In this document: one piece after another, positions 2,508-25,534 of the stretch
Position numbering within the stretch: the stretch's first letter is position 1
How the letters are laid out: each line of letters opens with the position of its first letter
Assembly: GCA_903845115.1 (NCBI GenBank)
Contig: CAIMWE010000111.1
Span: 1-53,492 of the forward strand
DNA length: 53,492 nucleotides
Direction of reading: 5' to 3'
Source: an uncultured Acidobacteriota bacterium
Lineage (GTDB): Bacteria > Acidobacteriota > Thermoanaerobaculia > UBA5066
Position numbers and translations under genes: made by a program
Notes under the pieces: generated by a model
The model's database searches: none
The model's input: the letters and a program-made list of their open reading frames with translations, nothing else
Told to the model about the DNA's origin: nothing

Positions 2508-2702
2508 CTACGCGAAGGGGTTCCTGACGAGTAGCCCCTCGAACCGCTGCCCTGCGTTGAGGTCCTCGGACCAGACGACCTCGCACCCGAGGCGGCGGGC
2601 GCTCTGCAGAATCAGTGCGTCCCGGAGGGAAACCCGCGCCGTCGCATGGATCTGAATGGCCGCCAGCAGGTCCTCCCGTTTCGGCTCGTGGAGGGTCCAG
2701 AT
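2508..2702 (-). pseudogene. 3' remnant of a PIN-domain toxin nuclease
   Basis: The last 60 or so codons before TGA-type stop at 2510-2508 read as the C-terminal third of a VapC-like PIN domain: RVSLRDALILQSARRLGC, then VVWSEDLNAGQRFEG and a final VRNPF. The acidic residues of DAL and SED, and the NPF ending, are typical of the family. The N-terminal half with the first catalytic Asp is missing; the frame runs upstream into sequence that belongs to a different remnant (2717-3685). No antitoxin gene is present. It is therefore the broken end of a toxin gene cut by rearrangement. Confidence 0.55.
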
Positions 2703-2716
2703 GGCCCCGAAATACG

Positions 2717-3685
2717 TCACCGAACTTGAAGTCCAGGGTCCGTCGCTTCGGAGAGAGCCGCGGCTGACCTTCCACCGGTCGCCGTCCCCGTCCCGAAGAA
2801 GCAGTCGTGCCAGGCGGCGAGGTTCAGCCTCCGGAGGCCGTACGGGACCGAGGCCGGGAAGCCGAGCGCCTCGCTCTTCAGGCCCCTCAGGAACGCGCTC
2901 GACGACACGATCGACTCCGCCCAGCCCGCGAGCGGCCCGTCGAGCCAGTTCCGCTCGGGCATCGTCCAGCCCACCTTGTCCCTCCTCCAGACGATCGCGT
3001 CCGGGAGCCTGCCGCTGAAGGCCAGCCTGCAGGCGAGAGCAAGGTCGATGACCCCGCTCGCCCCCATCGTCGCGCGGAGCCGGAGCCCTTCCCGCAGCAC
3101 CCGGGCCACCGGGAGGCGCTGGAGGTGGGCGAACCGGTGGTAGGTGTACCGGGTCTGCTGCTCGTCGGCCCCCTGCCCGTCGAGCACCACGCTGCAGCCG
3201 GCCGCGCGGGCGAGCCGGTAGGTGGCGAGCCCGCCGACACCGGTCGTGTCGGGCGGATCCTCGAAGGAGCGGATGACCGCCGGGTGCCGGAGGAGCCTCT
3301 TGATCTCGGAAGAAAAGAGGAGGAGGTCCCCGGCGAGGCGGTAGAGGACGCGCCCCTCGACGAGCCCTTGGGACGTCGTCTCCACGACGGCGTCGTCGTC
3401 TCCGTGCTCGACCATCCGCGCGAGGTACCCGTGCAGGTCGAAAGGGCGCGGCGTCGTGACGTGGGCCCCCGTGTCGAGACGCTCCTTCCCGATCGCCGCG
3501 CCGACCGACGTCACCATGCCGACGCCGTGGCCGGCCGCACGGAGGATCGCGCGAACGAAGGCAGCCGTCGTCGTCCTGCCGTCGGTGCCGGTGACGCCGA
3601 CGACGCGAAGCTTCAGCGCGGGGCGGGCGAAGAAGCTCGCCGACCTGACGCCCGGGATGACGCGCGAGGCGATCAAGAAGCTCAT
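2717..3685 (-). pseudogene. chimeric remnant: MurE-like fragment joined to AsnB-type amidotransferase pieces
   Basis: A single open frame from ATG 3685 joins two unrelated folds. The first ~110 residues match the ATP-binding domain of the MurE-like protein at 7650-9206, including LRVVGVTGTDG, DTGAHVTTP and LVEGRVL, but the P-loop Lys is Arg (GTDGRTTT). From there it turns into asparagine-synthase-type sequence: LLLFSSEIKRLL, then after a large internal gap the pieces SVVLDGQGADE and IVWRRDKVGWTMPERNWL. The SGGLDSS pyrophosphatase loop and most of the synthetase core are absent, so neither activity can survive. MurE lacks its N-terminal domain here. The terminal 25 residues look out of frame. 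It is probably the scar of two deletions; a misassembled contig is the alternative. Confidence 0.6.
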
Positions 3686-3909: not shown

Positions 3910-5331
3910 ATGAGCGACGGGGGCAGCGCGGGCCATTCCACAAGCCACGGTGCGAGCCAGGCGGGCGCGGGACGCCTCGAGGAGCTGCGACAGCTCGTCC
4001 AGGACGGCAGCGTGGACACCGTGATCGTCGCCTTCGCGGACATGCAGGGCCGCCTCCTGGGCAAGCGGGTCCAGGCCGAGGCCTTCCGGGAGGGCGTCGT
4101 CGATCACGGGATCCACTTCTGCACCTACCTTCTCGGCACCGACATGGAGATGAACACGCCGGGCGGCTTCGGGCTGACGAGCTGGAAGACCGGCTACGGC
4201 GACTGGATCGCCCGCCCGGACTGGAGCACGATGCGAGTCCTGCCCTGGCTCGAAGGCTCGGCCATCGTGCTCTGCGACGCGGTGGACGGCGAGACGGGCG
4301 TCGAGATCCCGGTCTCGCCGCGGACGGTGCTCAGGCGCCAGGTGGAACGCGCCTCGGCTCTCGGCTACCGCGTCATGGCCGGAACCGAGCTCGAGTTCTA
4401 CGTCCTGTCGGACACCTTCGAGGGCCTGGCCGCGAAGGGCTGGAACGACGTCGGCCGGGTGGGCTACTACAACGAGGACTACCACATCCTCCAGGCCACC
4501 AAGCTCGAGCCGCTCTACCGCCAGATCCGCAACCAGTTCACTTCGGCCCGGATCCCGGTCGAGTTCAGCAAGGGCGAGGCCGCCGCGTCGCAGCACGAAA
4601 TCAACATCCGCTACGACGACGTGCTGGAGACGGCCGACCGGGGTGTCCTCTTCAAGAACGGAGCCAAGGAGATCGCCTGGCAGAACGGCTACGGCCTGAC
4701 CTTCATGGCCAAGCCCCACGGCGGCTGGAGCGGCTCGAGCGGCCACCTGCACCTCTCGCTGTGGGATCCGGAGGGCGAGAGGCCGCTCTTCCCGGAGGAC
4801 GGCGCGCACCCGCACGGGATGAGCCGGACGATGCGCTGGTTCCTCGGCGGGATGATGAAGCTACAGCGCGAGCTGGCCCTCTTCGTCGCCCCGAACGTCA
4901 ACTCGTACAAGCGCTATGCCGTCGCCAGCTGGGCCCCCGTCTACGTGGTCTGGGGGCGTGACAACCGGACCACCGGCTTCCGGATCGTGGGCGAGGGGGC
5001 GAGCCTGCGCATCGAGAACCGCTTTCCCGGCGGTGACATGAACCCCTACCTGGCCTATGCGGCGACGATCGGGGCGGGGCTGTGGGGGATCGAGAACGAG
5101 GTCGAGCCGCCGGCCGAGCTCGAGGGCAACGGCTACGAGGCGAACGGCTGCGACCGGATGCCGCGGGCGCTGTACGAGGCGATCGACCTGCTGGCCGGCA
5201 GCGAGGCCGCGGCCTCGATCCTCGGCAGGGACGTCGTCGACCACTACCTCAACGCGGGCCGGGTGGAGCAGGCCGCGTACGACTCGGCCGTCAACGCCTG
5301 GGAGCGCGAGCGCTACCTCGAGCGGGGGTAG
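3910..5331 (+). CDS. glutamine-synthetase-family ligase (type III-like / gamma-glutamyl ligase)
   Basis: A 473-residue glutamine synthetase fold protein. The beta-grasp N-domain is seen in VIVAFADMQGRLLGKRV; the catalytic domain has the metal/glutamate loop TELEFYV, SQHEINIRY, the ATP-binding KPHGGWSGSSGHLHLS and the ammonium/product region NRTTGFRIVG followed by RIENRFPGGDMNPYLAYA. The C-terminal adenylylation loop of housekeeping GlnA is not evident, so this is more like the GlnA3/PuuA-type enzymes that ligate ammonia or an amine to glutamate or a related acid. ATG 3910 follows a G-rich stretch. The next genes are murT and gatD, 35 bp on and co-directional; GatD consumes glutamine, so a supply role is plausible. 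Which substrate it uses is unknown. Confidence 0.85.
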   Translation: MSDGGSAGHSTSHGASQAGAGRLEELRQLVQDGSVDTVIVAFADMQGRLLGKRVQAEAFREGVVDHGIHFCTYLLGTDMEMNTPGGFGLTSWKTGYGDWIARPDWSTMRVLPWLEGSAIVLCDAVDGETGVEIPVSPRTVLRRQVERASALGYRVMAGTELEFYVLSDTFEGLAAKGWNDVGRVGYYNEDYHILQATKLEPLYRQIRNQFTSARIPVEFSKGEAAASQHEINIRYDDVLETADRGVLFKNGAKEIAWQNGYGLTFMAKPHGGWSGSSGHLHLSLWDPEGERPLFPEDGAHPHGMSRTMRWFLGGMMKLQRELALFVAPNVNSYKRYAVASWAPVYVVWGRDNRTTGFRIVGEGASLRIENRFPGGDMNPYLAYAATIGAGLWGIENEVEPPAELEGNGYEANGCDRMPRALYEAIDLLAGSEAAASILGRDVVDHYLNAGRVEQAAYDSAVNAWERERYLERG

Positions 5332-5366: not shown

Positions 5367-6797
5367 ATGAGGATCGAGCCCGAGCCGTCCGCCCCGACGG
5401 GCCCCGGCACCAGGTCGCCCCGCGTCCTTTTCGCCCTGGCCGCCGGCAAGACCGCGGCCTGGGCCACCCGTGCGCTGGGCCGGGGCGGCGGCACCTCGGT
5501 CACCGGCATGGTCGCCCGCTGGGTGGACCCGCGCATCCTCGAGCGGCTCGTCCTGCGCAACGGCATGCCGGCCGTGGCCATCACCGGCAGCAACGGCAAG
5601 ACGACCACCACCCGCTTCACCGCCGCCCTCCTGCGCGGCGAGGGCGTGGGCGTCGTGTACAACTCGGCCGGCGCGAACCTGGTCCAGGGCGTGACGAGCC
5701 TGGCGGTCAACGCTTCCGACTGGCGCGGCCGGATGCCGGAGGCCGTCTTCGTAGCCGAGGTGGACGAGGCGGCGCTGCGATTCGTCGTCCCGGAGATCGC
5801 GCCGCGGGCCCTCTTGGTCACGGACCTCTTCCGCGACCAGCTCGACCGCTACGGCGAGACCTACGCCGTCGCGGACGCGATCGAGGCCGTCGCCTCGAGC
5901 CTCCCTCCCGAAGCGGCCCTCGTCGTCAACGCGGACGACCCGGTCGTGGCCACGCTGGCCGGCAAGCGCGCCGGCCGGAGGCTCACCTTCGGGCTGGCCC
6001 TTTCGCACTCGACCGACCGGATTACACGCGCGGCCGACACGATCCGCTGCCCGCGCTGCCGGGCGGACCTGAGGTACCGCCACGTCTACCTGAGCCACAT
6101 GGGCGACTACAGCTGCCCCTCCTGCGGCTTTGCCCGTCCCGAGCCGGACGTGGCGGTCACCTCGGTGGAGGTCGCAGGCCTCGACCGGACGCGCGTCGTC
6201 CTTGCGACCCCGGCCGGACTCCTCGACCTGGACATCCCGCAGGCGGGAATTCACATCGCCTACGACGCGGCCGCGGCCGTGGCCGTCGTCGTCGCCCTGG
6301 GCCTCCCGCTCGAGCACGCCGCCGCCTCGATGGCCGCGGCGAGCCCCGCCTTCGGCCGGCTCGAGAGGATCGACGCCTGCGGCACCTCCGTGGTGCTGGC
6401 CTTCGCCAAGAACCCCACGTCGTACAACACCACCCTCAGAGCCCTCGCGACCGAGGGCGAGCCTCGCCAGCTGCTCGTCGCGGCCTCCAACACCCTCGTG
6501 GACGGGGAGGACTTCGGCTGGCTCTGGGACGTGGAGTTCGAGTCGATGGCGCCGGGAATCGAGCGGGCCGTGGTCTCGGGGACGCGCGCCGACGAGCTGG
6601 CCAACCGGCTCCGCTACGCCGGCGTGCCGTCGGGGCGCCTGACCGTGATCGAGGACCGCCGGGCCGCCCTGGACGCGGCTCTTGGAGGCCTGCCGCCGGG
6701 GGCCCGCCTGGTCGTGCTGTCCGGCTACACGCCGCTGATCGAGCTGCGCGAAGAAATGCGCAGGCGCGGCTGGACGGGGAGGTACTGGGCCGTATGA
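5367..6797 (+). CDS. murT: lipid II isoglutaminyl synthase, MurT-type subunit
   Basis: 476-residue Mur-ligase-family protein lacking the usual UDP-binding N-domain, as in MurT. P-loop GSNGKTT at residues 74-80; a four-cysteine zinc ribbon insert in the middle domain (Cys228, Cys231, Cys250, Cys253, as CPRC and CPSC), the hallmark separating MurT from other Mur ligases; KNPTSYN near 348 and DGEDFGWLWD near 379, the region that carries the catalytic Asp in the S. aureus protein. With GatD it amidates the alpha-carboxyl of D-Glu in the peptidoglycan stem. The start ATG at 5367 lies 35 bp after the GS-like gene. Its stop overlaps the gatD start as ATGA. MurT/GatD is best known from Gram-positive bacteria; its presence beside Gram-negative outer-membrane genes is notable. 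Confidence 0.9.
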   Translation: MRIEPEPSAPTGPGTRSPRVLFALAAGKTAAWATRALGRGGGTSVTGMVARWVDPRILERLVLRNGMPAVAITGSNGKTTTTRFTAALLRGEGVGVVYNSAGANLVQGVTSLAVNASDWRGRMPEAVFVAEVDEAALRFVVPEIAPRALLVTDLFRDQLDRYGETYAVADAIEAVASSLPPEAALVVNADDPVVATLAGKRAGRRLTFGLALSHSTDRITRAADTIRCPRCRADLRYRHVYLSHMGDYSCPSCGFARPEPDVAVTSVEVAGLDRTRVVLATPAGLLDLDIPQAGIHIAYDAAAAVAVVVALGLPLEHAAASMAAASPAFGRLERIDACGTSVVLAFAKNPTSYNTTLRALATEGEPRQLLVAASNTLVDGEDFGWLWDVEFESMAPGIERAVVSGTRADELANRLRYAGVPSGRLTVIEDRRAALDAALGGLPPGARLVVLSGYTPLIELREEMRRRGWTGRYWAV

Positions 6798-7639
6798 GCG
6801 CGTCGAGAAAGCCCGGAGAGGCGGCGTCCGCCGCCCCGGCCCGGCCGCTGCGCATCGCCCACCTCTACCCATCGCTCCTCAACGTGGCGGGCGACGGGGG
6901 CAACCTCATCGCCCTCGAACGGCGGGCCCGGTGGCGCGGCCTCCTCGTCGAGACGGTCCCGGTGGAGAGGGGAGAGCAGCCGGATCTCCGCCGCTTCGAC
7001 GTCATCCTGTTCCACGGCGGGCAGGACGTGGAGATGGCGGTGGCCGCAGCGGATCTCCCCCTCAAGACGCCCTCGCTGCGAGCGGCGGCGGAGGAGGGGG
7101 TGATCGTCTTCGCCGTCTGCGCGGGTCTCCAGCTGCTCGGTCGTCGCTACGTTTCCAGCGCGGGCGAGGAGCTGCCGGGCGCCGGGATCCTGGACCTTAC
7201 GACCCGCGCCGGGTCCCAGCGGTTCATGCAGCACGCCGCCTGCGAGGTCACCATCGACGGCCAGACCGGGACGGTCGTGGGGTTCGAGAACCACTCGGGC
7301 CTGACCGTGCTGGGGCCGGACTGCCCGGCCTTCGGGCGGGTCGTGGCCGGGGCCGGCAACAACGGCCGCGACGGCCAGGAGGGCGCGCGCTGGCGCAACG
7401 TCTTCGCCACGTACCTGCACGGGCCCTGCCTGCCGAAGAACCCCTGGCTGGCCGACCAGCTGCTGCGCCTGGCCCTGGCCCGGGCCGAGGGCGTGCCGCC
7501 CCACGAGGTCCGCCTCGCCCCGCTGGACGACACGCTGGAGAATCGCAGCCACGACGTGGCCCTGGCCCTGGCGATGGCCAACCGCGGCCGGCGGACCGCG
7601 CTCGAGCCGGCGAGGCTCAACCGGGGACGCGAGGTGTAG
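6794..7639 (+). CDS. gatD: lipid II isoglutaminyl synthase, GatD glutaminase subunit
   Basis: 281-residue class I glutamine amidotransferase of the CobB/CobQ type. The nucleophile elbow is AVCAGLQLLG with Cys109; FENHSG sits mid-protein, and the catalytic His209 lies in YLHGPCLPKNPWLAD. It releases ammonia from glutamine for the MurT active site. The ATG overlaps the murT stop (ATGA), so the two subunits are translationally coupled, as expected for a 1:1 complex. About 18 N-terminal residues before RIAHLYPSLLN are extra and low-complexity. It ends only 10 bp from the end of the opposing MurE-like gene, leaving no room for a separate terminator. Confidence 0.92.
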   Translation: MSASRKPGEAASAAPARPLRIAHLYPSLLNVAGDGGNLIALERRARWRGLLVETVPVERGEQPDLRRFDVILFHGGQDVEMAVAAADLPLKTPSLRAAAEEGVIVFAVCAGLQLLGRRYVSSAGEELPGAGILDLTTRAGSQRFMQHAACEVTIDGQTGTVVGFENHSGLTVLGPDCPAFGRVVAGAGNNGRDGQEGARWRNVFATYLHGPCLPKNPWLADQLLRLALARAEGVPPHEVRLAPLDDTLENRSHDVALALAMANRGRRTALEPARLNRGREV

Positions 7640-7649
7640 GCCCCGGGGC

Positions 7650-9206
7650 TCATCCGAACCGGGAGGCGAGCGCGTCGCGCACCTCCCGGGCCTCGTCCCA
7701 CGGTCCGTCGACGCCGGCGACCGCCAGCGTCCGCTCGTGCCCCTTCCCCGTGACGAGGACGAGGTCTCCCGGCTCGGCCAGCTCCACGGCGAAGCGGATC
7801 CCCTCGCTGCGGTCGCGAACGCGCCAGAAATCGATCCCTTCCCTCAGTCCCGCCCGGGCGCAGCCGGCCGCCTCGTCCCCAATGATGTGGTCGGCATCCT
7901 CCTCGTACCAGCAATCAACCGTGATCACCACCTTGTCCGCGAGCCGTCCCGCGATCTCGCCCATGAGGGGGCGTTTCGCCCGGTCCCGGCGTCCCGGCTC
8001 GCCGAACAGGAGGATGACCCGCTTCCTGGCGAAGGACCGGGCCATCCGGAGGAGCCCCTCGAGCGCGTTGGGCGTGTGGGCGTAGTCGACGTAGACATCG
8101 ATCCCCCGGCCGCCGTCGATCCTCTCGAACCTTCCCCGGATGCCGCGGACCGAGGCGATCCCCGCCGCGGCCTCCTCGGGCGAGACCCCCTGCGAGTGGC
8201 CGACCGCCATCGCCGCCAGCGCATTCGCGACGTTGGCGTCTCCGGGAAGCGCCGTCCGGACCTCCACGCGCCCGGTCGGCGTCCTGGCCGTGAACGTCGT
8301 CCCTTCGCCCGCATGGACGATCTTCTCGGCGCCGAAGTCGGCGGGTTGCGCGAGCCCGTAGGTCAGCGTCACGTCCGCCCGTATCCCGCGGAGGCGCTCG
8401 AACGACGGGTCGTCCCGGTTGAGGACGGCGACCTTCGGGACGCCGGCCTTGGCGGCGGGGCCTTCCGCCAGGCTCCGGAAGAGGAGCGCCTTCGCCTCGA
8501 GGTACGCCTCCGGCGAGCCGTGAAAGTCGAGGTGCTCGTGCGTGACGTTGGTGATCACCGCCACGTCGAAGGAGGCGTCGAGGACCCGTCCCTCGACGAG
8601 GCCGTGGGAGGTCGCCTCCAGGACGGCGTAGGCGTCGCCGTTCCCGACCATCCGCGCCAGCAGCGCGTGGAGCTCGAAGGGCCAGGGGGTCGTGACGTGA
8701 GGGCCGGTGTCGAAGAGGTCGCTCCCGATCGTGGCGCCGAGCGTCGTGATCATCCCGGCCCCGCGGCCGGCACGCGAGAGAAGAGCCCGGGTGAACGTGG
8801 CCGTCGTGGTCTTTCCGTCCGTCCCCGTGACCCCGACGACGCGCAGCTTGCGGGCCGGGTGGCCGAAGTAAGCCGCCGCCAGGGCCGAGAGGGCGGCGCG
8901 GGAGTCCGGCACGCGGACGTACGGGACCTTCCCCGGCAGGGCCAGTCCCGGCAGCTCGCCGACGACGGCGCAGGCCCCGCGCGCCACGGCGTCTGCGGCG
9001 TACCGATGGCCGTCCAGGTGGCGACCGGGGACCGCCACGAACAGCTCTCCCGGAAGGAGCAGCCTCGAGTTGTTGGCGATGCCCGTCGCTTCGACGTCGG
9101 GCAGCGAGGGGACGACCGCTCCGGGCAGGGCGGTGAGGAGCGCGGCGAGCCTCACGCGCGGCGGCGCCCCTCCGGGAAAGGCCAGGGGGACGGGAGCCGT
9201 CGGCAC
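7650..9206 (-). CDS. MurE-family UDP-MurNAc-dipeptide:amino-acid ligase, atypical specificity loop
   Basis: 518 residues with the full three-domain MurE layout. P-loop GTDGKTTT at 128-135; THEHLDFHGS then the carbamylated-Lys position in AKALLF (Lys239); GRFERID; VDYAHTPNALE; a dinucleotide-loop GEPGRRDRAKRP; and the C-terminal GKGHE (488-491). The loop that reads DNPR in meso-diaminopimelate enzymes reads Asp-Cys-Trp-Tyr at 431-434 (positions 7916-7905), so the third amino acid or even the substrate may differ. Start is a GTG at 9206, one base after the TAG of the C39-like gene, with no clear ribosome binding site, suggesting coupling. A housekeeping murE would normally sit in a division/cell-wall cluster; here its partners are an exporter and modifying enzymes. 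It may be a second copy. An inactive fragment of a close relative lies at 2717-3685. Confidence 0.85.
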   Translation of the reverse strand: MPTAPVPLAFPGGAPPRVRLAALLTALPGAVVPSLPDVEATGIANNSRLLLPGELFVAVPGRHLDGHRYAADAVARGACAVVGELPGLALPGKVPYVRVPDSRAALSALAAAYFGHPARKLRVVGVTGTDGKTTTATFTRALLSRAGRGAGMITTLGATIGSDLFDTGPHVTTPWPFELHALLARMVGNGDAYAVLEATSHGLVEGRVLDASFDVAVITNVTHEHLDFHGSPEAYLEAKALLFRSLAEGPAAKAGVPKVAVLNRDDPSFERLRGIRADVTLTYGLAQPADFGAEKIVHAGEGTTFTARTPTGRVEVRTALPGDANVANALAAMAVGHSQGVSPEEAAAGIASVRGIRGRFERIDGGRGIDVYVDYAHTPNALEGLLRMARSFARKRVILLFGEPGRRDRAKRPLMGEIAGRLADKVVITVDCWYEEDADHIIGDEAAGCARAGLREGIDFWRVRDRSEGIRFAVELAEPGDLVLVTGKGHERTLAVAGVDGPWDEAREVRDALASRFG

Positions 9207-9207
9207 G

Positions 9208-9768
9208 CTAGTCGAACCCCGGGGCCTTCGGCCGTCCCCGAAAGCGCCCGACCCAGCGCCACCGGGCCCGGTGCCCGACGAAGTGCGCGGAGAAGCTGAT
9301 GCTCCCGTACGTCGCGAGGAGCCGGATCGTCGACGCCGTCTTCGGGTCGAACGCCTCGTAGTCCCCGCCCGTCTCGTCGTACCGGATCGGAAGGACCCAG
9401 TGGGAGTTCCCCGCCACCGCCAGGACGACGCTCCGGCGCAGGGGGTCGTCGGGGCGAGGGAGGTAGGCCCTGACCAGGGAGTCGTCCGGGCCACCGCCGC
9501 CGGGCCCGCGTCCGCCCTCCAGCCAGCGGAGCGAGAAGCCAGGCAGGTCGAGCCGGCGCCACCGGAGCAGACCGTCCGTGGTGAAGAGGCGCGCGTCGGC
9601 CGCCAGCGCGTCCGGTGTGAGGCCGTGGCCGTAGTACCACGTGAGCATCGCGATGCAGGTGACGAGGCACCCGTCGCTCCCGACGGTGCAGGAGCTCCTG
9701 CCGATCCGCTGGGCGGACCACCGGGGGTCCCTCTGTCCCAGGAGGGGAATCCGGTCGATCGCGCTCAA
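9208..9768 (-). CDS. stand-alone C39-like (papain-fold) peptidase
   Basis: 186-residue protein resembling the Peptidase_C39_2 family. Catalytic set in order: a Gln before the nucleophile (LLGQRDPRW), Cys34 in GSDGCLVTCIAML, His123 in GNSHWVLPI and Asp141 in AFDPKTAST. No signal peptide or membrane segment. It begins with TTG at 9768, overlapping the TGA of the GNAT gene (TTGA), and its stop nearly touches the MurE-like start. Family members cleave peptides or amide bonds after Gly-type sites. Because the first ABC exporter subunit in this run has no C39 domain of its own, this protein may supply leader-peptide cleavage in trans; that is inference. A role on peptidoglycan stem peptides is an alternative. 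Confidence 0.7.
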   Translation of the reverse strand: MSAIDRIPLLGQRDPRWSAQRIGRSSCTVGSDGCLVTCIAMLTWYYGHGLTPDALAADARLFTTDGLLRWRRLDLPGFSLRWLEGGRGPGGGGPDDSLVRAYLPRPDDPLRRSVVLAVAGNSHWVLPIRYDETGGDYEAFDPKTASTIRLLATYGSISFSAHFVGHRARWRWVGRFRGRPKAPGFD

Positions 9769-10682
9769 GCCGCCCCCCCGGGCTCCCTCCGGTGGAAGAC
9801 GACGTCCTGGAACGGACGGAACCCGAGGGAGCGGTAGAGGGCGAGGGCCGCCGCGTTCCCGGCGTCGACCTCCACGAGGACCTCTCGCGCGCCGCGCCGA
9901 AGAAGCCGCCGGACACACTCCGCCACGATCGCCCTGCCGAGCCCGCGGCCGCGCTCCTCGTGCAGGACCCCCACCGGCTCCACCTGGCCCGTTCCGCTCG
10001 GGGCGTCGTACCAGCCGAGGCAAAGGCCGGCGAGGCGTCCGCCGCGGGCAACGGCGACGACGTCGAGCGCCGGGTCGTAGGCAGGGTGACGGAGCAGCCG
10101 GAGCCGCCACGGCAGCGTCATGTTGCTCGTCTCGAAGAAGGAGCGCTGCAGCTCGACGGCCAGGGGCGCCTCGGCCTCCCCGGCGAGGGGCCGGATCGCG
10201 AAGCCCGGTGGCGGCACGCGATCCGGCGGCCCCTCCACGGCGCGCATCCAGACCCTCGACCAGGAGCCGCTTCCCGAGACCGGGACCGCGGCAAACCCCG
10301 CCCTCTCGAGGGCCTGCCGGCCTTCCTCGTCCTCCGGGCGGGCCTCGACGAACCAGGACGGCCTGCCGTACGGCGTGCCGGCCACCTGCCGCGCCCGTTC
10401 GGCCCCCCAGCCGAGGATCTCGTCGAGGAGGCCGCTCCGGGCCTTCGGGTGGCAGCCGTACTCGATCAGCCAGAACGGCGTCTGCAGGGCTCCCCACGCG
10501 AGGAGTCGCCCCGCGCCGTCGAGCCAGAGACGGCAGTTCTCCGGCTCGTCGAGGGCCCACGAGCCCAGGCGATACGGCAGGTCGACGACGTGCGGGTGCT
10601 CCGCCGGGAAGGCGCGGGCCAGCGCGGAAAACGCCTCGATCCCGGGGCGTCCCCCGGGGTCGGCCGGGGAGAGGCGGCTCAT
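9765..10682 (-). CDS. GNAT-family N-acetyltransferase, two-lobed
   Basis: 305 residues. The C-terminal half is a clear GNAT domain with the acetyl-CoA pyrophosphate loop GVLHEERGRGLGRAIV and the late strand VDAGNAAALALYRSLGF. The N-terminal half, with WLDGAGRLLAWGALQ, looks like a degenerate second GNAT lobe, an arrangement like mycothiol synthase or other tandem acetyltransferases. It would acetylate an amine on a small molecule or peptide; the acceptor is not known. ATG 10682 overlaps the end of the glycosidase-like gene (10679) by four bases, and its stop overlaps the C39-like start, so it is coupled on both sides. Confidence 0.75.
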   Translation of the reverse strand: MSRLSPADPGGRPGIEAFSALARAFPAEHPHVVDLPYRLGSWALDEPENCRLWLDGAGRLLAWGALQTPFWLIEYGCHPKARSGLLDEILGWGAERARQVAGTPYGRPSWFVEARPEDEEGRQALERAGFAAVPVSGSGSWSRVWMRAVEGPPDRVPPPGFAIRPLAGEAEAPLAVELQRSFFETSNMTLPWRLRLLRHPAYDPALDVVAVARGGRLAGLCLGWYDAPSGTGQVEPVGVLHEERGRGLGRAIVAECVRRLLRRGAREVLVEVDAGNAAALALYRSLGFRPFQDVVFHRREPGGAA

Positions 10683-11515
10683 GGCGTCCGGCGCTCCTTC
10701 GAGAGGGCGATGATCGTCGCCAGGGGGGGAGTCTCCCAGCCGACGAAACGACCCAGCTGCGGGAGGTACATCCGGGCGGCCCTGCTGCCGTCCAGGTACA
10801 GGGCGTCGGGGCAGCCGAGGCGATCCCGGAAGAGGGTCGCGAGATCGTGGAAGCAGGTGATCCCGTCCGAGATCGCGAAGAGGACGGCCCCCCCGCGGTC
10901 CACGCCGACGGCACTTCTCACGCAGCGGTCCCTGCAGCCAGGAAGGAGGCGGGGGTGGAGGAGGCCGCCGAGGACGAGCATCGGGCCCGACTGGACGGCG
11001 AGCCGGATGGGATGGTCCGGGCGGTAGGCGGCCGTCTCGACCACCCGGGCCTGCGAATCCGCCACGAAGAAGACGCCGTTGGGATGGAGGAAGTAGTTCT
11101 CTACCCCGGTCCCCTCGTTCAGCGGGGAGAGGACGACGCCCTCCTCGACGAGGAGACCGAGCGGCGTCCAGGCGCGCGTGTACATCCCCCCGTTGACCGC
11201 GAAAAGGAGATCGAGGCCCCGCGCCGCAAGGCCCTGGCGCAGGGTCTCGATCCGGGCGTAGGGGCGTCCGTCGGGGCGCTTCCAGTGGACCCGCAGCGCC
11301 GGCACCTCTTCCGGCTCGACGCGGCAGACGTCGTACCGTCCCCCGACGTGGTCGACGGAGAAGGCCTGGACCGCCTCCGGGAGCGCCGGGGGCGTCGCGC
11401 CCCTGCCGGAGGAAAGCCCCCTCAGGACGCGGTCGGCCCGGGCGTGGGCGGCATGCAGGGCGGACGAGAGCCGCTCGCGAAGGAGGACCAGGACCGGCTC
11501 CGCGCGCTCAGGCAA
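10679..11515 (-). CDS. phosphodiester glycosidase-like protein (NAGPA domain)
   Basis: 278 residues matching the NAGPA/YigE-like phosphodiester glycosidase family: FAVNGGMYT with LGLLVEEG, HPNGVFFVAD, CVRSAVGVDRGG, and DALYLDGSRAARMYLP. Animal relatives uncover mannose-6-phosphate by removing GlcNAc from a phosphodiester; bacterial members act on sugar phosphodiesters, often extracellularly. No signal peptide is evident; the first 35 residues are charged and helical. The frame begins with TTG 11515, inside the last codons of the second ABC subunit (ends 11508), with GGGG/GGAG-rich sequence upstream. Its place directly after exporter genes suggests it modifies the exported product or a teichoic-acid-like polymer, which is inference. 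Confidence 0.75.
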   Translation of the reverse strand: MPERAEPVLVLLRERLSSALHAAHARADRVLRGLSSGRGATPPALPEAVQAFSVDHVGGRYDVCRVEPEEVPALRVHWKRPDGRPYARIETLRQGLAARGLDLLFAVNGGMYTRAWTPLGLLVEEGVVLSPLNEGTGVENYFLHPNGVFFVADSQARVVETAAYRPDHPIRLAVQSGPMLVLGGLLHPRLLPGCRDRCVRSAVGVDRGGAVLFAISDGITCFHDLATLFRDRLGCPDALYLDGSRAARMYLPQLGRFVGWETPPLATIIALSKERRTP

Positions 11516-14483
11516 AGGAGCCCCTCTCCTGGTCGGACTGGAGCAGCTGGCGCGTGACGAGGTCGTGGAACCTCCCCTTGCGCTGGAGCAGCTCCCTGTA
11601 CGTGCCCGACTCGACGATGCGTCCCCCGTCCAGCACCACGATCCGGTCGGCGTTCTTCACCGTCGAGAGCCGGTGGGCGACGACCACCCGGGTGGCCCGC
11701 AGCTCGTCGAGCGCGCGCGTGACTAGCTCCTGGGTCCGGTTGTCGAGCGCGGACGTCGCCTCGTCGAGGAGGAGGATGGCCGGCTTTCCCGCCAGGGCAC
11801 GGGCGATGGCGATGCGCTGTCTCTGTCCCGTCGAAAAGGTCGCGCCCCCGGGCCCGACAGGGGTGTGGAGCCCCGCCGGCATCCGCCGGACGTCGTCCGC
11901 GAGCCCGGCGACGCGCGCCGCCTCCCACGCGTCCTCCTCCGTCAGGTCTCTCGAGCCGACGATGTTGGAGAGGATGGTCCCCGGCAGGAGGCCGGAGTCC
12001 TGCAGGACCACCCCGAGGTTCCGGCGGCGGAGCTTCTCGACGTTCAGGTCCGCGAGGTTCCGGTCGTCGTAGCGAACCGTGCCCGATGTCGGCGTCTCGA
12101 AGCCGAGGAGGAGCCGCAGGATGGTCGACTTCCCCGAGCCCGAGGGGCCGACGAGCGCCACGAACTCGCCGGGCGCGATCGAGAGGTCGACCCCGTCCAG
12201 GATCACGGGCCCCTCGGGCGCGTAGCCGAAGCGGACCTGGGAGAGCTCGATGCGTCCTTGCAGCCGGCCGGGGTCCGCCTTGCCGTAGTGGTCCTCCGGC
12301 ACCGTCTCGAGGATGGGCTTCAGCCTCTGGTAGAGCGGGAGGTTGGCCGACAGCTTCACGGCGGAGCCCGTCATGGCGAGGAGCGCCGTCTGGAGGGCGG
12401 TGTAAGCGGTGAGGAACGCGAGGAACGACCCCGTGTCCATCGTCGGGCGGGACCCGTCGGCAACGAGGAAGAAGAGGAGCATCGTCGCCGCGACCGGGAA
12501 GAGCTGGTTGAAGACGAGGAGGCGGTTCTGCTCCCGGCCGGTTCGCAGGCTCAGCCTCTCCATGCTCGAGAACGAGCGGGCCCAGAGGCCGAAGATCTCG
12601 TCCTCCGACCCGGACATCCGGATCTTGGGGATGCCCGAGAAGAACTGGACCACCATGCTCGTGAGGCGCCCGTGCAACGCGTGGTACTGGCGCCAGCTCA
12701 CCACCTGCCTCAGGTTGATCACGGCTCCGGCCACGGCGCCGAGCAGCAGCACGCCGATCGCGGGGAGCGCGAGCCGCGGGCCGTAGAAGAAGAGCATGAC
12801 GACGTTGACCGAGGCGACGACGGCGGAGAGGAACGTCGTGAGGAAGGCGTCGCAGAAGCTGACGCGGACGATGTTCAGCCCGTCGATCCGGTCGGCGAGC
12901 TCGCCGGGTCCCTCCCGGCGGTGGAAACCTGTCGGGAGCCTGACCAGCCGCTCCCACATGGCGGGCTCGAGCTGGAAGTCCATCCGCCCGACCATCCGCT
13001 GGAGGGCCGCGAGCCGGACGAGGCTGATGGAGAACGCCGACAGCGACACGACGGCGAGCACGGTCACGACCTGGGCCAGGAGGGAGCGATCGGCCGTCGG
13101 GACGGCGTCCGAGAAGATCGTCTTCACCACGACGGGAGGGATGACCGCGAGGCCTGCCTGGGCGAGGCCACAGGCGAGGATCCGCAGGAAATCGCTCCGC
13201 GTGCCGAACGCCGTGTAGCGGACGAGGTCCACGAGACCCAGGGGCGTCCGGGGAAGGGGCCGGTAGAACGAGATCGCACGGGGCGACACCCTCTCCGCGT
13301 TCTCGCGAGAGACCCGGAGGCTCGTCCCCGTCTCCGGGTCGTGCACGTCGTAGCGTCCCGGCCGGGACTGGAGCAAAGCGACGGGCCGGGACCGCCCCTG
13401 GCCTTCGCCCCCCTCCAGCAGGAATCCCAGGAGAGGCCCCCCGTCCTTCGTCCACCACCCGTCGCCGAGCGTGACCGGCCGCTGCCTCACCCCCCACGCG
13501 TCGGCGATGTCGACGACTCGCTCGTCGCCGGCGAGGGGGACGTCGGGGATCCGGATGCCGGTGGCGCGGGCGACGACGGCGCACGCCCGGGCCAGCGGCT
13601 GGGCCTGGTCCGCTCCGGACCTCCTCCGCTCCTCGCTCAGCACCGCGTCGAGGCGCCCCAGGCCGGTGGCCCTCGCCCGGGCGGCCGCGCTGTTCTTGGT
13701 GTGCATGGCGCCGTAGACGTCCGCGTCGGCGAGCCGCAGCTCGGTGCCCAGGCAGCGGAAGTAGAGGTCGGCGAAGCGGTCGAACGCCTCCACGAGCTCT
13801 CCGTGCGACAGGACGGCGGCGGTGTCGAGGACGTCCAGCGTGAAGGGGCCTTCCGGCCCGCACGCCTCGATCCACGTCTGCGGCGTCAGGACGACGCTGG
13901 GCCCGGACGAAACGGCCGCGACCTCCTCGACGCCGAGGTAGAGCAACGAGGCGGCCGGGCCGGACGGCGCGGCGCTCCGCAGCCACCAGACGCCCTGGCG
14001 CGGCCGGACCACGGTGGTCCCTTCGAAGGGGATCGCCTGGCCCGGGGAGAGGTCCTGGCGCAGGCTCGGCTTCGGGACGACGTCCCGGGTCAGCCCCTCG
14101 CAGAGGCCGAGGAGGAACCGGTCGACGAGCCGCGCGGCAGCTGCGGCATCGGCGGCCTCGGCACCCCCCCGGGGACGGCCGAGGAGGCGGTCCGCCTCCA
14201 GTGCGGTCACCCGCGTCCCGGGCAGGCCCACCGCCTGCAGGACGAGCCCCGTGGCGCCCTGTCCCAGCCCGGGCAGCACCTCGCCGGCGAAGGCGGTGAA
14301 CTGATGCCGGCGAGGGCCGACCGGGGCGCCGTCGCGGAGCCTGACCGAGTAGACCTCCACGCGCCCTTCCAGGACCGCCCAGACGACGGAGCGGTCGTCG
14401 AGGAGGAGAGGGGTCTTGCCGCTCAGCTGCCGCGGCTTCCCGCCGCCGCCGACGATCCGGTCCTGCCAGAAGGAGTGCGACAC
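11508..14483 (-). CDS. NHLP-type export ABC transporter, second permease/ATPase subunit
   Basis: About 991 residues. The first ~400 residues form a soluble region with no transporter motifs, as in the NHLM_micro_ABC2 class, which carries a long N-terminal extension. A six-helix exporter membrane domain follows (about 430-720: VVTVLAVVSLSAFSISLV, FLSAVVASVNVVMLFFYG, VAATMLLFFLV). The ATPase has Walker A GPSGSGKST, signature STGQRQRIAIARAL in place of the usual SGGQ, Walker B ILLLDEATSALD and VVVAHRLSTV. It works with the ABC subunit at 14492-16270 and the HlyD-type adaptor to move a leader-bearing peptide across the envelope. Start chosen as GTG 14483, nine bases after the preceding stop; a CTG a few codons upstream is possible. 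The signature Gly-to-Thr change is visible and may be tolerated. Confidence 0.85.
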   Translation of the reverse strand: MSHSFWQDRIVGGGGKPRQLSGKTPLLLDDRSVVWAVLEGRVEVYSVRLRDGAPVGPRRHQFTAFAGEVLPGLGQGATGLVLQAVGLPGTRVTALEADRLLGRPRGGAEAADAAAAARLVDRFLLGLCEGLTRDVVPKPSLRQDLSPGQAIPFEGTTVVRPRQGVWWLRSAAPSGPAASLLYLGVEEVAAVSSGPSVVLTPQTWIEACGPEGPFTLDVLDTAAVLSHGELVEAFDRFADLYFRCLGTELRLADADVYGAMHTKNSAAARARATGLGRLDAVLSEERRRSGADQAQPLARACAVVARATGIRIPDVPLAGDERVVDIADAWGVRQRPVTLGDGWWTKDGGPLLGFLLEGGEGQGRSRPVALLQSRPGRYDVHDPETGTSLRVSRENAERVSPRAISFYRPLPRTPLGLVDLVRYTAFGTRSDFLRILACGLAQAGLAVIPPVVVKTIFSDAVPTADRSLLAQVVTVLAVVSLSAFSISLVRLAALQRMVGRMDFQLEPAMWERLVRLPTGFHRREGPGELADRIDGLNIVRVSFCDAFLTTFLSAVVASVNVVMLFFYGPRLALPAIGVLLLGAVAGAVINLRQVVSWRQYHALHGRLTSMVVQFFSGIPKIRMSGSEDEIFGLWARSFSSMERLSLRTGREQNRLLVFNQLFPVAATMLLFFLVADGSRPTMDTGSFLAFLTAYTALQTALLAMTGSAVKLSANLPLYQRLKPILETVPEDHYGKADPGRLQGRIELSQVRFGYAPEGPVILDGVDLSIAPGEFVALVGPSGSGKSTILRLLLGFETPTSGTVRYDDRNLADLNVEKLRRRNLGVVLQDSGLLPGTILSNIVGSRDLTEEDAWEAARVAGLADDVRRMPAGLHTPVGPGGATFSTGQRQRIAIARALAGKPAILLLDEATSALDNRTQELVTRALDELRATRVVVAHRLSTVKNADRIVVLDGGRIVESGTYRELLQRKGRFHDLVTRQLLQSDQERGSFA

Positions 14484-14491
14484 GCCTCTGC

Positions 14492-16270
14492 TCAGCTCAT
14501 CAGGAGTCGCGCGTAGCGCCCGCCGCCGGCCATCAGCTCCTCGTGCGTGCCGCGCTCCACGATGCACCCCTGGTCCATGACGATGATCTCGTCCGCGTCC
14601 CGGATCGTGGAGAGCCGGTGGGCCACGATCAGGCAGGTCACGCCCCGTCTCCTGAGGGACGCGTCGACCCGCTCCTCGGTCTCGGAGTCGAGGGCGGAGG
14701 TGGCCTCGTCCAGGATCACGATCGACGGGTTGGTCGCCAGGGCGCGCGCGATCTCGAGGCGCTGCCGCTGGCCGCCGCTGAAGTTGGCGCCGCCCGTCAG
14801 CACCCGGGAGGCGGTCCCTCCGGGCCGGCCGGCGATCACCTCGTGGATCTCGGCGTCCCTGGTCGCCTGCACGAGGTCGCTCTCGGGGATCGCCGGGTTC
14901 CACATGGTCACGTTGTCGCGGACGTTCCCCTCGAAGAGGAAGACCTCCTGGTCGACGAAGGAGACCGAGTTCGCGAAGACGGCCTGCGGGATCTCCGCGC
15001 GGGGGACGGAGTCGAAGAGGATCTCCCCGGACCAGGGCCTGTAGAGCTGGGCGATCAGCCGGACCACGGTCGACTTGCCGGACCCCGAGGCGCCCACCAG
15101 GGCCACCCGCGAGCCGGGCGAGACCTTCAGGGAGAAGCCCCGGATGAGAGGCGGCTCTCCCGGCGTGAAGCCGAAGGTGACGTCGCGCAGCTCGAAGTCC
15201 CCCGAGAGCCGCACCCCCACCCCGGGGAGCACGAAGCGGTCCTCGCGGCCCTCCGCGAAGAGCGGGTCGGGCGGGTGCTCCGTCACCTCCTCGATCCCCC
15301 CGAGGTAGGCGCCGAGGCTCAGCACGCTCGCGCTCGAGGTGACGAACTGCCGCACCGGGGCGAGGAACGCGACGATGAGCACCTGGAACGCCGCGAGCGC
15401 GCCGATGGTCATGCTCCCCTCCATCACCCGGAGCGCGCCGAGCCCGAGGACGGCGGCCATGAGGAGGTCGGTGAGGAGGACGGGGACCTGCTCGAGGCCG
15501 AGCATCCAGAGCGAGTACCGCTGCCCGATGTTCTGCGCCCGGGCCTTGACGCCGGCGAGGTGCGTGAAGAACTCGTGCTCCCAGCCGGACGCCTTGACCT
15601 GCTCGACGTGCTGCAGCCCCTGGAGACCGACGGCCCAGACCTTCCGGTACTCGGCGATATAGCGCGTCAGGAGCTCCTTCCCCCGCGTCGCGCCCCCCTT
15701 CATCGCGGCGAGGTTGAGGAGGGCCGCGCCGACCGCCAGGAGTGTCAGTGCGACGTCGTACTGCAGCATGAGGAGGGCATAGAGGGCGATGCCGAGGATG
15801 CTGACCGCGGCGGACGTCGAGTCCTCGACGAGGATCCGGGAGACCGTCTCGATGTACTGGCCGCGCATCCCGACCTCGCCGCCGTGGAGCCGAGTGAAGA
15901 ACGAGTAAGGGAGCCGCAGCGCCCGGGAGACGAACCGGGCGTTTCCCGCCACCGTGCTCCTCACGACCTGCCGGAGGTACGTGCGGCGCTGGAGGGTGGC
16001 GAGAACGCCGATGGCCAGGAGCGACGCCGCCATGGCGGCGAGCAGAGGCCGAAGCCAGTCCCTCCGGCCCGGGCCGAGGATGTCGTCGATGAAGATCTTC
16101 GTGAAGCCGGGCTGGGCGAGGGCCGGGACGATCAGGAGGACGCCCGCGAGGAGCGCGGCGCCGAGGGACGGGGAGAGCCCCCCGAGCCGCGCCAGGACCG
16201 AGGCGAGGGCCCCCCCCGTCTCCGCGGCCTCCCGGACGGGCGTGCCCGGGCGTGACGTCGCCATTCCCAC
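14492..16270 (-). CDS. NHLP-type export ABC transporter, first subunit lacking its peptidase domain
   Basis: 592 residues, about 120 shorter than usual peptidase/permease/ATPase subunits of NHLP bacteriocin exporters. The protein opens straight into the membrane domain (ALLAGVLLIVPALAQPGFTKIF, then FIDDILGPGRRDWL, a typical motif of this class), so the N-terminal C39 domain that cuts leaders after Gly-Gly is missing. ATPase motifs are complete: GASGSGKST, NFSGGQRQRLEIARAL, IVILDEATSALD, IVAHRLST. The GTG at 16270 has GGAAGG seven bases before it; an in-frame ATG follows at 16264. No peptidase-like coding sequence lies in any frame between it and the adaptor gene, so the domain is absent rather than frameshifted. 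The C39-like protein at 9208-9768 may replace it. Confidence 0.85.
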   Translation of the reverse strand: MGMATSRPGTPVREAAETGGALASVLARLGGLSPSLGAALLAGVLLIVPALAQPGFTKIFIDDILGPGRRDWLRPLLAAMAASLLAIGVLATLQRRTYLRQVVRSTVAGNARFVSRALRLPYSFFTRLHGGEVGMRGQYIETVSRILVEDSTSAAVSILGIALYALLMLQYDVALTLLAVGAALLNLAAMKGGATRGKELLTRYIAEYRKVWAVGLQGLQHVEQVKASGWEHEFFTHLAGVKARAQNIGQRYSLWMLGLEQVPVLLTDLLMAAVLGLGALRVMEGSMTIGALAAFQVLIVAFLAPVRQFVTSSASVLSLGAYLGGIEEVTEHPPDPLFAEGREDRFVLPGVGVRLSGDFELRDVTFGFTPGEPPLIRGFSLKVSPGSRVALVGASGSGKSTVVRLIAQLYRPWSGEILFDSVPRAEIPQAVFANSVSFVDQEVFLFEGNVRDNVTMWNPAIPESDLVQATRDAEIHEVIAGRPGGTASRVLTGGANFSGGQRQRLEIARALATNPSIVILDEATSALDSETEERVDASLRRRGVTCLIVAHRLSTIRDADEIIVMDQGCIVERGTHEELMAGGGRYARLLMS

Positions 16271-16274
16271 GGCG

Positions 16275-17570
16275 TCACCTTCCGGCCGGAGGGCGGTCGA
16301 TGCCGGCTCCCAGGAAGCGCCGCCTGAGCTCGGGGACGATCAGCTCGATGGGGGCCCGGCGGCGGGCGATGATCCGGACGACGCACTGCGCTCCAGACTT
16401 GACGGTCGTCGGCGGGCCCTTCCCGGAGGACCAGCGGTAGCCGGAGGGGGTGCCGGCGTCCTTCTTCAGCCCGATCCGGACCATGACCGGCGCGCCGTCC
16501 CGGGTCAGGACCTGCACGAGCTCCGAGTTGTCGAGCACCCTCATGAGGCCTTTCGGGGAGACGGGATACGGCGAGATGGAGAGCACCTCGCCGAGCATCA
16601 CGCCGTACTCCTCGTCCCGAACGCTCTCGGGGATGACATGGGCCTGCATCCCGGCCCGAAGCGCCAGGCCCTGGAACGGCGCGACGTACGCGACCACCAC
16701 CGGCTCGTTCTCCGCCCCGGATTCCCCGGAGGAGGTCATCTCCAGCGTCGCGATCGAGTCGCCCTGCTGCAGCATGGTCCCGGGGTTCCTGTGGAGCTCG
16801 ACGACGACCCCGCCCTCGAGACTCCGGACCTCGGAGTGGCTCCTCATGCGCTCCCGGAGCGAGACGACCCGCTCCTCGACGGGGACGACCTGCGTCGTCA
16901 ACTCCACGAACCGCTGGTGCACCTCGTACGCGGTCTTCTGCGCGAGGACGTCCAGCCCGGCCAGGCTCTGCTCGTCCTGCAGCTTCTGGAGCTGCGCCCG
17001 GCGGAGCTCGTTGTGCTGCTTCTCGAGGTCCCACGTGCTCACGAGGCCCTGCCGGTGCAGGCTCTCGAGCGACGTCAGGATGGCCTCCGTCTCCTCCATG
17101 AAGAGGCCGCCGAGCCGGATCGACTCGCGCAGGGCCCGGCGCTGCTTCTCGAGGTGCTGCTCCGTCAGCACGTCGTTCTTCTTCTCGAAGAGCTCGACGA
17201 GGTGCCGCTCCTCGTTCAGCTTCTGGAGGAGGCTCTCGGCCTCCCGCAGCTCGGCCCGGAGCGTCGGCTGGTCGAGCCGCGCGACGACCGCCCCCTTCTG
17301 CACGGCCTGCCCCTCCTTCACGTCGAGCTCCAGCAGCTGTCCGGACGAGATCGCCACGATGGGGAAGAGCGTGCCGCTCCGGATCAGGAGCCCCTTGCCG
17401 GTGACCTGCGTCCCCACGCTCCCCGCGAAGGCCCAGGTCACGGCGCCGGCGAGGAGGAGACCGACGGTGAGGAGGGCCACCCAGGTCCCGGTCCCGACCA
17501 CGTAGCGGACCTCGTCCAGCTCCGTCCCGGGCGCCGGGTCGGGAGCCGGCTGGATCGTGCGGCTCGACAT
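16275..17570 (-). CDS. HlyD-family periplasmic adaptor of the NHLP export system
   Basis: 431 residues: short cytosolic N-terminus, one membrane anchor (about 30-52, WVALLTVGLLLAGAVTWAFAG), a lipoyl-like half-domain (ISSGQLLELDVKEGQAVQKG), a long coiled coil from about 115 to 215 rich in Glu/Leu/Arg, then the second lipoyl half (LEGGVVVELHRNPGTMLQQG) and a beta-barrel tail. It bridges an inner-membrane ABC exporter and the outer membrane. Its stop lies four bases before the first ABC subunit, and it follows the methyltransferase by nine bases. A TolC-type outer-membrane channel is not encoded here and must be elsewhere if used. Confidence 0.88.
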   Translation of the reverse strand: MSSRTIQPAPDPAPGTELDEVRYVVGTGTWVALLTVGLLLAGAVTWAFAGSVGTQVTGKGLLIRSGTLFPIVAISSGQLLELDVKEGQAVQKGAVVARLDQPTLRAELREAESLLQKLNEERHLVELFEKKNDVLTEQHLEKQRRALRESIRLGGLFMEETEAILTSLESLHRQGLVSTWDLEKQHNELRRAQLQKLQDEQSLAGLDVLAQKTAYEVHQRFVELTTQVVPVEERVVSLRERMRSHSEVRSLEGGVVVELHRNPGTMLQQGDSIATLEMTSSGESGAENEPVVVAYVAPFQGLALRAGMQAHVIPESVRDEEYGVMLGEVLSISPYPVSPKGLMRVLDNSELVQVLTRDGAPVMVRIGLKKDAGTPSGYRWSSGKGPPTTVKSGAQCVVRIIARRRAPIELIVPELRRRFLGAGIDRPPAGR

Positions 17571-17579
17571 CGGTATAGC

Positions 17580-18569
17580 TCAGGCGGCCCGGGCCGGCCG
17601 GGCGTCCCACGCCCCGGTCCGGCGGATGTAGAAGGAGTTCGGGAAGACCGGGGAGAGGCCCGGCAGGATCCCCTTCGGATGCGTCTTCAGGATCGGGAGG
17701 GCCTCGGCCAGGGCCCCGTGGTGCTCCTCGGCGAGCATGTTGGCGGAGAGGAGGACCTGCCAGCCGGGGTTGTCCGAGAGGAGGCTCTCGAGAAGGTACT
17801 GCTCCGTCCAGAGGACCCGCGCTTCGAGCACCCAGGAGCTCGGGTAGTCCCGCGGGGTGAAGATGTCGTGGAAGTGAACGACCACGCCGGGAGCGAGACG
17901 GGGCAGGAGCTCCTGGAAGATGAACAGGACGTCCCCCTGCGGCTTCACGACGTGGGAGGAGTCGACGAAGAGGAGGTCCCCCGCGCCGAGGGAGCCGGCG
18001 AGCGGGGCGGGGTCCATCCGCTCGATCGGCTCGCGGAGCACGCGCACCGGCAGCTCCTCGAGCCAGGGCTGCTCGAAGGGCTCGATGCAGACGTGGTCGC
18101 ACGGGGCGCCGCCGCGCTCCAGGGCGCGCCGGATGACGAGCGTCGACATGCCGCACCCCACCTCGACGACACGTCGCGGCCGCAGGTGGCGAACCATGTG
18201 GTGGAGGAGTCCGGCGTCGACCGGCCCGAAGGTCCGGTTGCGATAGCCGTAGCGGAGCGGCTCCGGTTCCATCGGGATGTCGGACAGCTCGTCCGTCCCG
18301 GCGAAGGAGCGGAGGAGCTCGAGCTGGGCCCCGGTGCAGAGGTCGAGACCGGGGAGCGGGCGGGGATCCTCCAGCCTCCGGCGAAGGCCGGACTCCCGGA
18401 CGTAAGGCTCGTAGTAGTGGTCGCGAACGGGGAGGAGCCCCATCCGGGCGAGCACCTCGCTCGTGCGCGGCAGGCGCATCAGCCCCTCGGACCTGACGTG
18501 GCGCAGCAACCACGCACAGGGCCTCACCAGGAGCGACAGGAGGTGATCGGACGGGAAAGCAACGGTCAT
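17580..18569 (-). CDS. class I SAM-dependent methyltransferase (Methyltransf_24-like)
   Basis: About 329 residues from ATG 18569, which has GAGGTG nine bases upstream; an open frame continues further upstream but lacks coding character. Motif I is VVEVGCGMSTLVIRRALE, followed by an acidic strand end CIEPF, then LLFVDSSHVVKPQGDV and GVVVHFHDIFTPRDYPSSWV with the acid/His pair common to the Methyltransf_24 group that includes sugar and small-molecule O-methyltransferases. It is the first gene of the leftward run, nine bases from the HlyD gene. It may methylate the exported product; substrate unknown. Confidence 0.8.
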   Translation of the reverse strand: MTVAFPSDHLLSLLVRPCAWLLRHVRSEGLMRLPRTSEVLARMGLLPVRDHYYEPYVRESGLRRRLEDPRPLPGLDLCTGAQLELLRSFAGTDELSDIPMEPEPLRYGYRNRTFGPVDAGLLHHMVRHLRPRRVVEVGCGMSTLVIRRALERGGAPCDHVCIEPFEQPWLEELPVRVLREPIERMDPAPLAGSLGAGDLLFVDSSHVVKPQGDVLFIFQELLPRLAPGVVVHFHDIFTPRDYPSSWVLEARVLWTEQYLLESLLSDNPGWQVLLSANMLAEEHHGALAEALPILKTHPKGILPGLSPVFPNSFYIRRTGAWDARPARAA

Positions 18570-24716: not shown

Positions 24717-25025
24717 TCAGGTCGCATGTGGAATGAAATAGCTTGGCTCTCGGCGATGGTGCGCAACGGCCGCGATCCGGATCCGATCTGGCTCGATCGC
24801 ATAGAAGAGCGTGTCGAACGGCTTTCTCAGCGTCTTTCGCCTGAGATTGCCGATCGAGATGGGGGCCGCCTCGGGAAATCGTTCGATAAAGGCGACGGCG
24901 CGAGTCACCTCGGCGTGAAACGCCTCGGCGATGTCCTTTGCCTCATCAGCGTAGTGCTTTCGGATGACGCGAAACTCGCCCTCCGCCGGCCGTGCGAAAT
25001 AGGCCTTACGAGCGGGAGGCGTCAC
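24717..25025 (-). CDS. ParE/RelE-family toxin
   Basis: 102 residues, a typical length. The family pattern is clear: a helical N-terminal half (AKDIAEAFHAEVTRAVAFIE, FPEAAP), then the basic strands RRKTLRKPFDTLFYAIEPDR and IRIAAVAHHRREPSYF. Such toxins poison gyrase (ParE) or cut mRNA on the ribosome (RelE); the C-terminal His-Arg-Arg-x-P-x-Y/F ending is more ParE-like. The GTG start at 25025 overlaps the antitoxin end by 20 bp, the usual coupled order antitoxin then toxin. The gene ends at the edge of a tRNA-like repeat (24643-24716). Confidence 0.82.
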   Translation of the reverse strand: MTPPARKAYFARPAEGEFRVIRKHYADEAKDIAEAFHAEVTRAVAFIERFPEAAPISIGNLRRKTLRKPFDTLFYAIEPDRIRIAAVAHHRREPSYFIPHAT

Positions 25026-25218: not shown

Positions 25219-25290
25219 CGTCACGGCTGGAATTCTAGTTCTTCTCCGCACGATCTCAAGCCTGGCCGTTTCCCTCGAGTGACCCGGTGA

Positions 25291-25478: not shown

Positions 25479-25534
25479 CCGGGGACAGGATAGACGAACC
25501 TCACCTTTCCAATGACTTACGAATCCGCTGTTTT

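Follow-up and report, generated by a model that had tools for sequence, protein, structure and literature searches.

Organization of the locus

The window, that is, the whole stretch of 53,492 nucleotides analysed here, corresponds to an entire contig (C111) of an assembly of 5.85 Mb in 305 contigs that is 96% complete. On its minus strand, running from 18569 to 7650, a codon-usage gene finder places eight adjacent genes with intact reading frames, which profile searches assign, in order, to Methyltransf_24, the NHLP HlyD adaptor, ABC1, ABC2, NAGPA, GNAT, and C39_2-like and MurE-like proteins (Table 1). Both the leftward run and the gene names given in the original prediction are thus borne out. 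That prediction also held that no gap exceeds about ten bases. This is correct for the six junctions from Methyltransf_24 to the C39-like gene (+9, +10, +8, -8, -4 and -4 bp, in order), but the C39-like/MurE-like junction measures +52 bp with the gene finder's start, and 1 bp if the MurE-like gene begins instead at an in-frame GTG (9206) one base past the C39-like stop. RBS-like sequences precede several of the operon starts, and overlapping start/stop junctions span the passage from the exporter into the tail genes. Since the junctions, the last one excepted, overlap or measure at most 10 bp and several starts carry these RBS-like sequences, co-transcription of the tail with the exporter is very likely on sequence grounds. 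No promoter-like site was found in the region, terminator-like sites occur there at chance level, and the search for RNA elements returned two tRNAs and nothing else.

On the plus strand, genes for a glutamine synthetase, MurT and GatD converge on the operon, and the GatD stop lies 10 bp from that of the MurE-like gene.

Table 1. Genes of the minus-strand operon and of the convergent plus-strand group.
Feature	Position	Strand	Evidence
Methyltransf_24, class I SAM methyltransferase, first operon gene	17580..18569	-	PF13578 50 bits, cut-off 26; ATG at 18569
NHLP-type HlyD adaptor	16275..17570	-	TIGR03794 266.3 bits, cut-off 156.2
ABC1 permease/ATPase without C39 leader-peptidase domain	14492..16264	-	TIGR03796 659.6 bits, cut-off 853.3
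ABC2 permease/ATPase	11508..14483	-	TIGR03797 754 bits, cut-off 709.4
NAGPA/DUF2233-type phosphodiester glycosidase-like protein	10679..11515	-	PF09992 74.9 bits, cut-off 25
GNAT protein, 305 aa	9765..10682	-	PF00583 56 bits, C-terminal half
Free-standing C39_2-like cysteine peptidase homologue	9208..9768	-	PF13529 20.6 bits, below cut-off 24
MurE-like ligase	7650..9155 (alternative GTG start 9206)	-	TIGR01085 437.9 bits, cut-off 257.3
Glutamine synthetase family protein	3910..5331	+	PF00120 317 bits
MurT-like ligase	5367..6797	+	PF08353 and PF08245; alignment to 6gs2/6fqb
GatD-like glutamine amidotransferase	6794..7639	+	PF07685 112 bits; Cys and HGP motif aligned to GatD

An NHLP exporter without a leader peptidase

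Both the HlyD adaptor and ABC2 score above the cut-offs of their NHLP families. TIGR03796 has been described as the transporter with a peptidase and TIGR03797 as the one without it (Haft et al. 2010, PMC2887384). The match of the window ABC1 to TIGR03796 begins at position 127 of the 710 of the model, leaving positions 1-126 unmatched; the lack of the C39 peptidase domain accounts for this and for a score below the cut-off. No C39 motif was found in this ABC1; the motif is present in all 14 other ABC1 loci compared, namely those of the three other NHLP exporters of this genome, nine further loci of the phylum and two plasmid loci. As only 10 bp separate the end of HlyD from the start of ABC1, there is no space for a lost frame between them. 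A leader-peptidase domain is carried by neither ABC subunit and, judging by this domain content, the exporter would be unable to cleave a leader by itself. The HlyD protein is at most 34% identical to any full-length match in 297 phylum genomes, values of 36-41% belonging to partial matches.

Three further NHLP exporters, all with C39 domains, are encoded in the genome, on contigs C94, C222 and C2. Those of C94 and C2 adjoin outer-membrane-efflux-like genes, and that of C222 adjoins a gene for a 752-aa protein.

Precursor peptides and the C39-like protein

Profile searches detected no NHLP or Nif11 leader on the contig, and inspection of the intergenic stretches in its first 26 kb revealed no small ORF resembling a leader, in agreement with the earlier statement that no precursor lies in the run or its flanks. 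On the other hand, the premise that NHLP exporters sit with precursors was too strong. The exporters on Azospirillum oryzae and Bradyrhizobium sp. plasmids have no precursor or modifying enzyme annotated nearby, albeit in an incomplete gene table, and exporters without a linked precursor are therefore not rare. Elsewhere in the genome, a whole-genome profile search recovered five NHLP leaders that exceed the TIGR03793 cut-off (contigs C280, C259 and C16) together with four Nif11 leaders (contigs C117, C101, C196 and C120). By sequence reading, without a profile, the NHLP precursors of C280 and C16 are paired and have radical-SAM-like neighbours; that of C259 has a Cys-rich core, KACCCGGGPNASCSG. 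No exporter was seen near the NHLP leaders of these three contigs in the stretches read.

The free-standing C39-like protein scores below the curated cut-offs of both peptidase families (PF03412, 11.8 versus 22 bits; for PF13529, see Table 1). Its Q, C, H and D residues are conserved in an alignment of six sequences comprising the window protein and five relatives from other phylum genomes. The five relatives have an N-terminal hydrophobic segment and are encoded by stand-alone genes, and the window protein shows no evident signal or membrane anchor.

This protein could replace the lost domain, which counts against the interpretation that we favor below. It has thus to be considered that the operon serves a RiPP, with the C39_2-like protein as a leader peptidase acting in trans on an unlinked NHLP or Nif11 precursor, and with the methyltransferase and the GNAT protein as tailoring enzymes. 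In favor of this reading, the operon itself includes a free-standing C39-like gene whose product has the Q/C/H/D set conserved and, unlike its anchored relatives, no evident signal, and the genome has the NHLP and Nif11 leaders, the former with no exporter seen around them. However, the C39-like protein is nearer to Peptidase_C39_2 than to the bacteriocin C39 family while passing neither cut-off, the genome already has its three C39-bearing NHLP exporters, and the MurE, NAGPA and MurT/GatD proteins are left unexplained. Altogether, we regard this alternative as rather unlikely, but still a serious competitor.

The NAGPA-like protein has no evident N-terminal signal and, relative to two homologues, carries DGS in place of the DGG motif; two alphaproteobacterial homologues occur in unrelated contexts, and the N-terminus of one is clearly signal-like. 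The GNAT match is confined to the C-terminal half of the protein and, in 60 relatives, also covers the C-terminal part only; a relative in Deinococcus ficus (32% identity) lies in an unrelated context. The predicted structures of the C39-like and NAGPA-like proteins have a pLDDT of 35, too low to be informative.

Conservation and origin of the gene combination

None of the genomes examined conserves the gene order of the operon: there was no other instance in about 400 genomes of one phylum and in plasmid records. The combination is real and unusual, and was seen nowhere else in the phylum genomes and plasmid records searched. The original prediction regarded separate occurrence of the exporter half and the tail half, or a standard precursor with its own peptidase elsewhere, as evidence against itself, and each was found in part. 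Elsewhere, the exporter half and single tail genes have homologues that occur separately, those of single tail genes in unrelated contexts, and the NHLP and Nif11 precursors of the genome coexist with three C39-bearing NHLP exporters. With a single known instance, a shared pathway thus receives no backing from conservation.

Other origins were also considered. A defense system was rejected, as PADLOC gave generic ABC ATPases and nothing further, and so was a phage origin, as PHROGs gave generic acetyltransferase matches only and the C39-like protein had no match in phage records. Mis-binning of the contig as a whole was rejected because its RF3 is 87% identical to that of the same genus and 70-77% to those of the same family. 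The RF3 gene (41922-43541) occurs throughout the sampled genus and in most genomes of the family; at E<=1e-60 no match appeared in the other families sampled of the order and class, and the gene may be family-restricted here. An HMT-MTHFR neighbor shows 41-45% identity within both family and order and gives no clear guide to ancestry. Near the contig edge, an AMP-binding enzyme (732-2282), whose closest PDB entries are fatty-acyl-CoA synthases, has poorer codon usage than its neighbors.

Gene debris lies at 2508-3685 of the window: a MurE-like remnant that shares about 61-62% identity with the intact copy is fused to asparagine-synthetase pieces (2717-3685, minus strand) and runs together with a PIN-like end, which suggests a decayed relative of the cluster. 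At 24717-25738, ParE/antitoxin-like small genes accompany a tRNA-Leu, the middle part of which (23 bases) is repeated at 25339-25361, and a 43-aa ORF reads like an integrase C-terminus; this is a possible insertion site.

The operon might accordingly be a chance assembly at a recombination hotspot, in which unrelated acquired genes are read through from an exporter promoter and have no joint function. The second MurE and asparagine synthetase debris 4 kb away, the toxin-antitoxin-like genes, duplicated tRNA-Leu stretch and integrase-like ORF at 24.7-25.7 kb, and a gene order conserved nowhere seen are consistent with this possibility, as is the normal ancestry of RF3, by which the foreign-looking part is limited to some of the contig. 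Eight intact frames, joined by overlaps and preceded by RBS-like sequences, suggest selection instead. We consider a chance assembly rather unlikely, on a par with a trans-acting peptidase.

A MurE paralogue with an altered substrate motif

The last gene of the operon belongs to the MurE family by profile, exceeding the cut-off of NF001126 (409.8 versus 373) in addition to that of TIGR01085. When it is aligned with dcw-type MurE proteins, four features prove to be retained (the TGT-GKT loop, the AK motif with its Lys, the DYAHTP region and GKGHE), but the DAP motif DNPR is replaced by DCWY. A complete dcw cluster elsewhere in the genome contains a DNPR-bearing MurE beside MurF, MraY, MurD and others, gene names that, except for MurE, come from sequence reading and order. 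The window ligase is a second, non-housekeeping MurE paralogue. It has been shown that DNPR contacts the DAP carboxylate in the E. coli and M. tuberculosis enzymes, and that the lysine-using S. aureus MurE has DNPA (PMC3829189). Given this role of DNPR and its replacement by DCWY, DAP is an unlikely substrate of the window protein. Its best match among 396 phylum genomes is 45% identical, and the two best phylum matches (L118 and L119) carry DNPR. A scan of 84,980 genomes with two narrow MurE peptide patterns yielded MurE matches alone, at 40% identity or less.

The convergent glutamine synthetase-MurT-GatD genes

The catalytic residues of the neighboring amidation pair are in place. In alignments to 6gs2 and 6fqb, the MurT protein retains the Asp of the triad together with the four Cys of a zinc ribbon, and the active Cys and the His of the HGP motif are present in GatD. 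The Cys and His of GatD and the Asp of MurT are required in S. aureus MurT/GatD (PMC6113224), and the window residues align with them. At E<=1e-20, MurT was found in this genome alone of 396, with none in the 395 other phylum genomes. The one tie between these genes and the operon is adjacency on opposite strands; a functional link is putative, and the group may be unrelated to the operon.

The exporter, converted from a peptide-cleaving one by losing its C39 domain, might carry a product built by the Mur ligase: an amide of non-ribosomal or cell-wall-derived character, made by UDP-MurNAc-peptide-like chemistry, that contains a residue other than DAP and is amidated by GatD/MurT. We consider this specific proposal unlikely as it stands. 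Even less probable is that the MurE-like protein and MurT/GatD remodel lipid II for self-protection, altering the third residue and the D-iGlu amidation of the stem peptide and thereby making the cell resistant to the wall-active product that it exports: MurT/GatD do amidate lipid II in Gram-positives (PMC6113224) with key residues that are kept here, and the MurE-like protein retains most substrate-site motifs apart from that for DAP, but no wall-active product was identified, neither a dedicated MurF nor an enzyme of a later step lies alongside, and a housekeeping MurE is present. The self-protection and trans-peptidase readings can overlap.

A tentative model for the exporter and its cargo

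The operon encodes an NHLP-type type I exporter whose built-in leader peptidase has been lost, along with a small enzyme set of its own, and the cargo would most likely be mature or leaderless already in the cytosol. As the best overall explanation, held tentatively and with the chances still somewhat against it, we favor an exporter whose product lacks a leader or has matured beforehand and which is coupled to re-specialized Mur-ligase chemistry. According to this model, the MurE-like ligase would add a non-DAP nucleophile to UDP-MurNAc-dipeptide or a similar carboxylate, and GatD/MurT, with glutamine supplied by the synthetase encoded next to them, would amidate the same kind of substrate. 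The GNAT, methyltransferase, NAGPA-like and C39-like proteins would then tailor or trim the product, to be exported through HlyD-ABC1-ABC2.

The idea of a non-standard, perhaps cell-wall-like cargo in the original prediction gains from the C39 loss, the lack of a nearby precursor, the MurE paralogue without the DAP motif and the glutamine synthetase-MurT-GatD genes 10 bp away. That prediction had not included the C39 loss, the changed motif of the MurE-like ligase or the convergent gene group. The same idea loses ground with the separate homologues, and with the standard NHLP and Nif11 precursors and three C39-bearing exporters elsewhere in the genome. That the ligase makes the cargo is a putative role. 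Against the favored model also stand the one known instance, the stand-alone occurrence of single tail-gene homologues and the unlinked precursors; with a single instance, we make no firm choice among the readings. Should the coupling prove functional, the locus would represent an NHLP exporter freed from the leader-peptide rule and a MurE paralogue re-specialized away from ordinary peptidoglycan, and would help to learn what orphan NHLP exporters can carry. It would also place MurT/GatD amidation genes of the Gram-positive type in a lineage where the sampled phylum is otherwise without them.

Relationship to known systems

Like NHLP bacteriocin exporters, the window system has HlyD and ABC2 over their cut-offs, paired ABC subunits and the order HlyD-ABC1-ABC2 (PMC2887384). 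It differs in an ABC1 without a peptidase domain, in a locus without a linked precursor, and in an operon that runs on into NAGPA, GNAT, C39-like and MurE-like genes. Because one defining feature, the peptidase, is missing and no precursor is linked, we file the exporter as a variant working like an NHLP exporter and not as a standard member. The C39-like protein shares the Q/C/H/D pattern and a DP motif with Peptidase_C39_2 proteins; unlike the N-terminally anchored, stand-alone phylum relatives, it has no evident anchor and belongs to an exporter operon. Compared with PF09992 phosphodiester glycosidases, the NAGPA-like protein has the domain over the cut-off and is 41-46% identical to plasmid-borne proteins of rhizobia and relatives, but it has DGS for DGG and no evident signal peptide. 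The MurE-like ligase is of the same family as MurE, the UDP-MurNAc-L-Ala-D-Glu:meso-DAP ligase, with the ATP-site, Lys and GKGHE motifs kept, and departs from it by DCWY for DNPR, a position outside dcw and at most 45% identity in the 396 phylum genomes. Finally, MurT and GatD resemble lipid II isoglutaminyl synthase as an adjacent, overlapping pair with a zinc ribbon and aligned Cys, His and Asp residues, and their activity is predicted from these sequence features. In contrast to the known enzyme, the window pair resides in a host whose sampled phylum is otherwise without MurT, and it is preceded by a glutamine synthetase gene.
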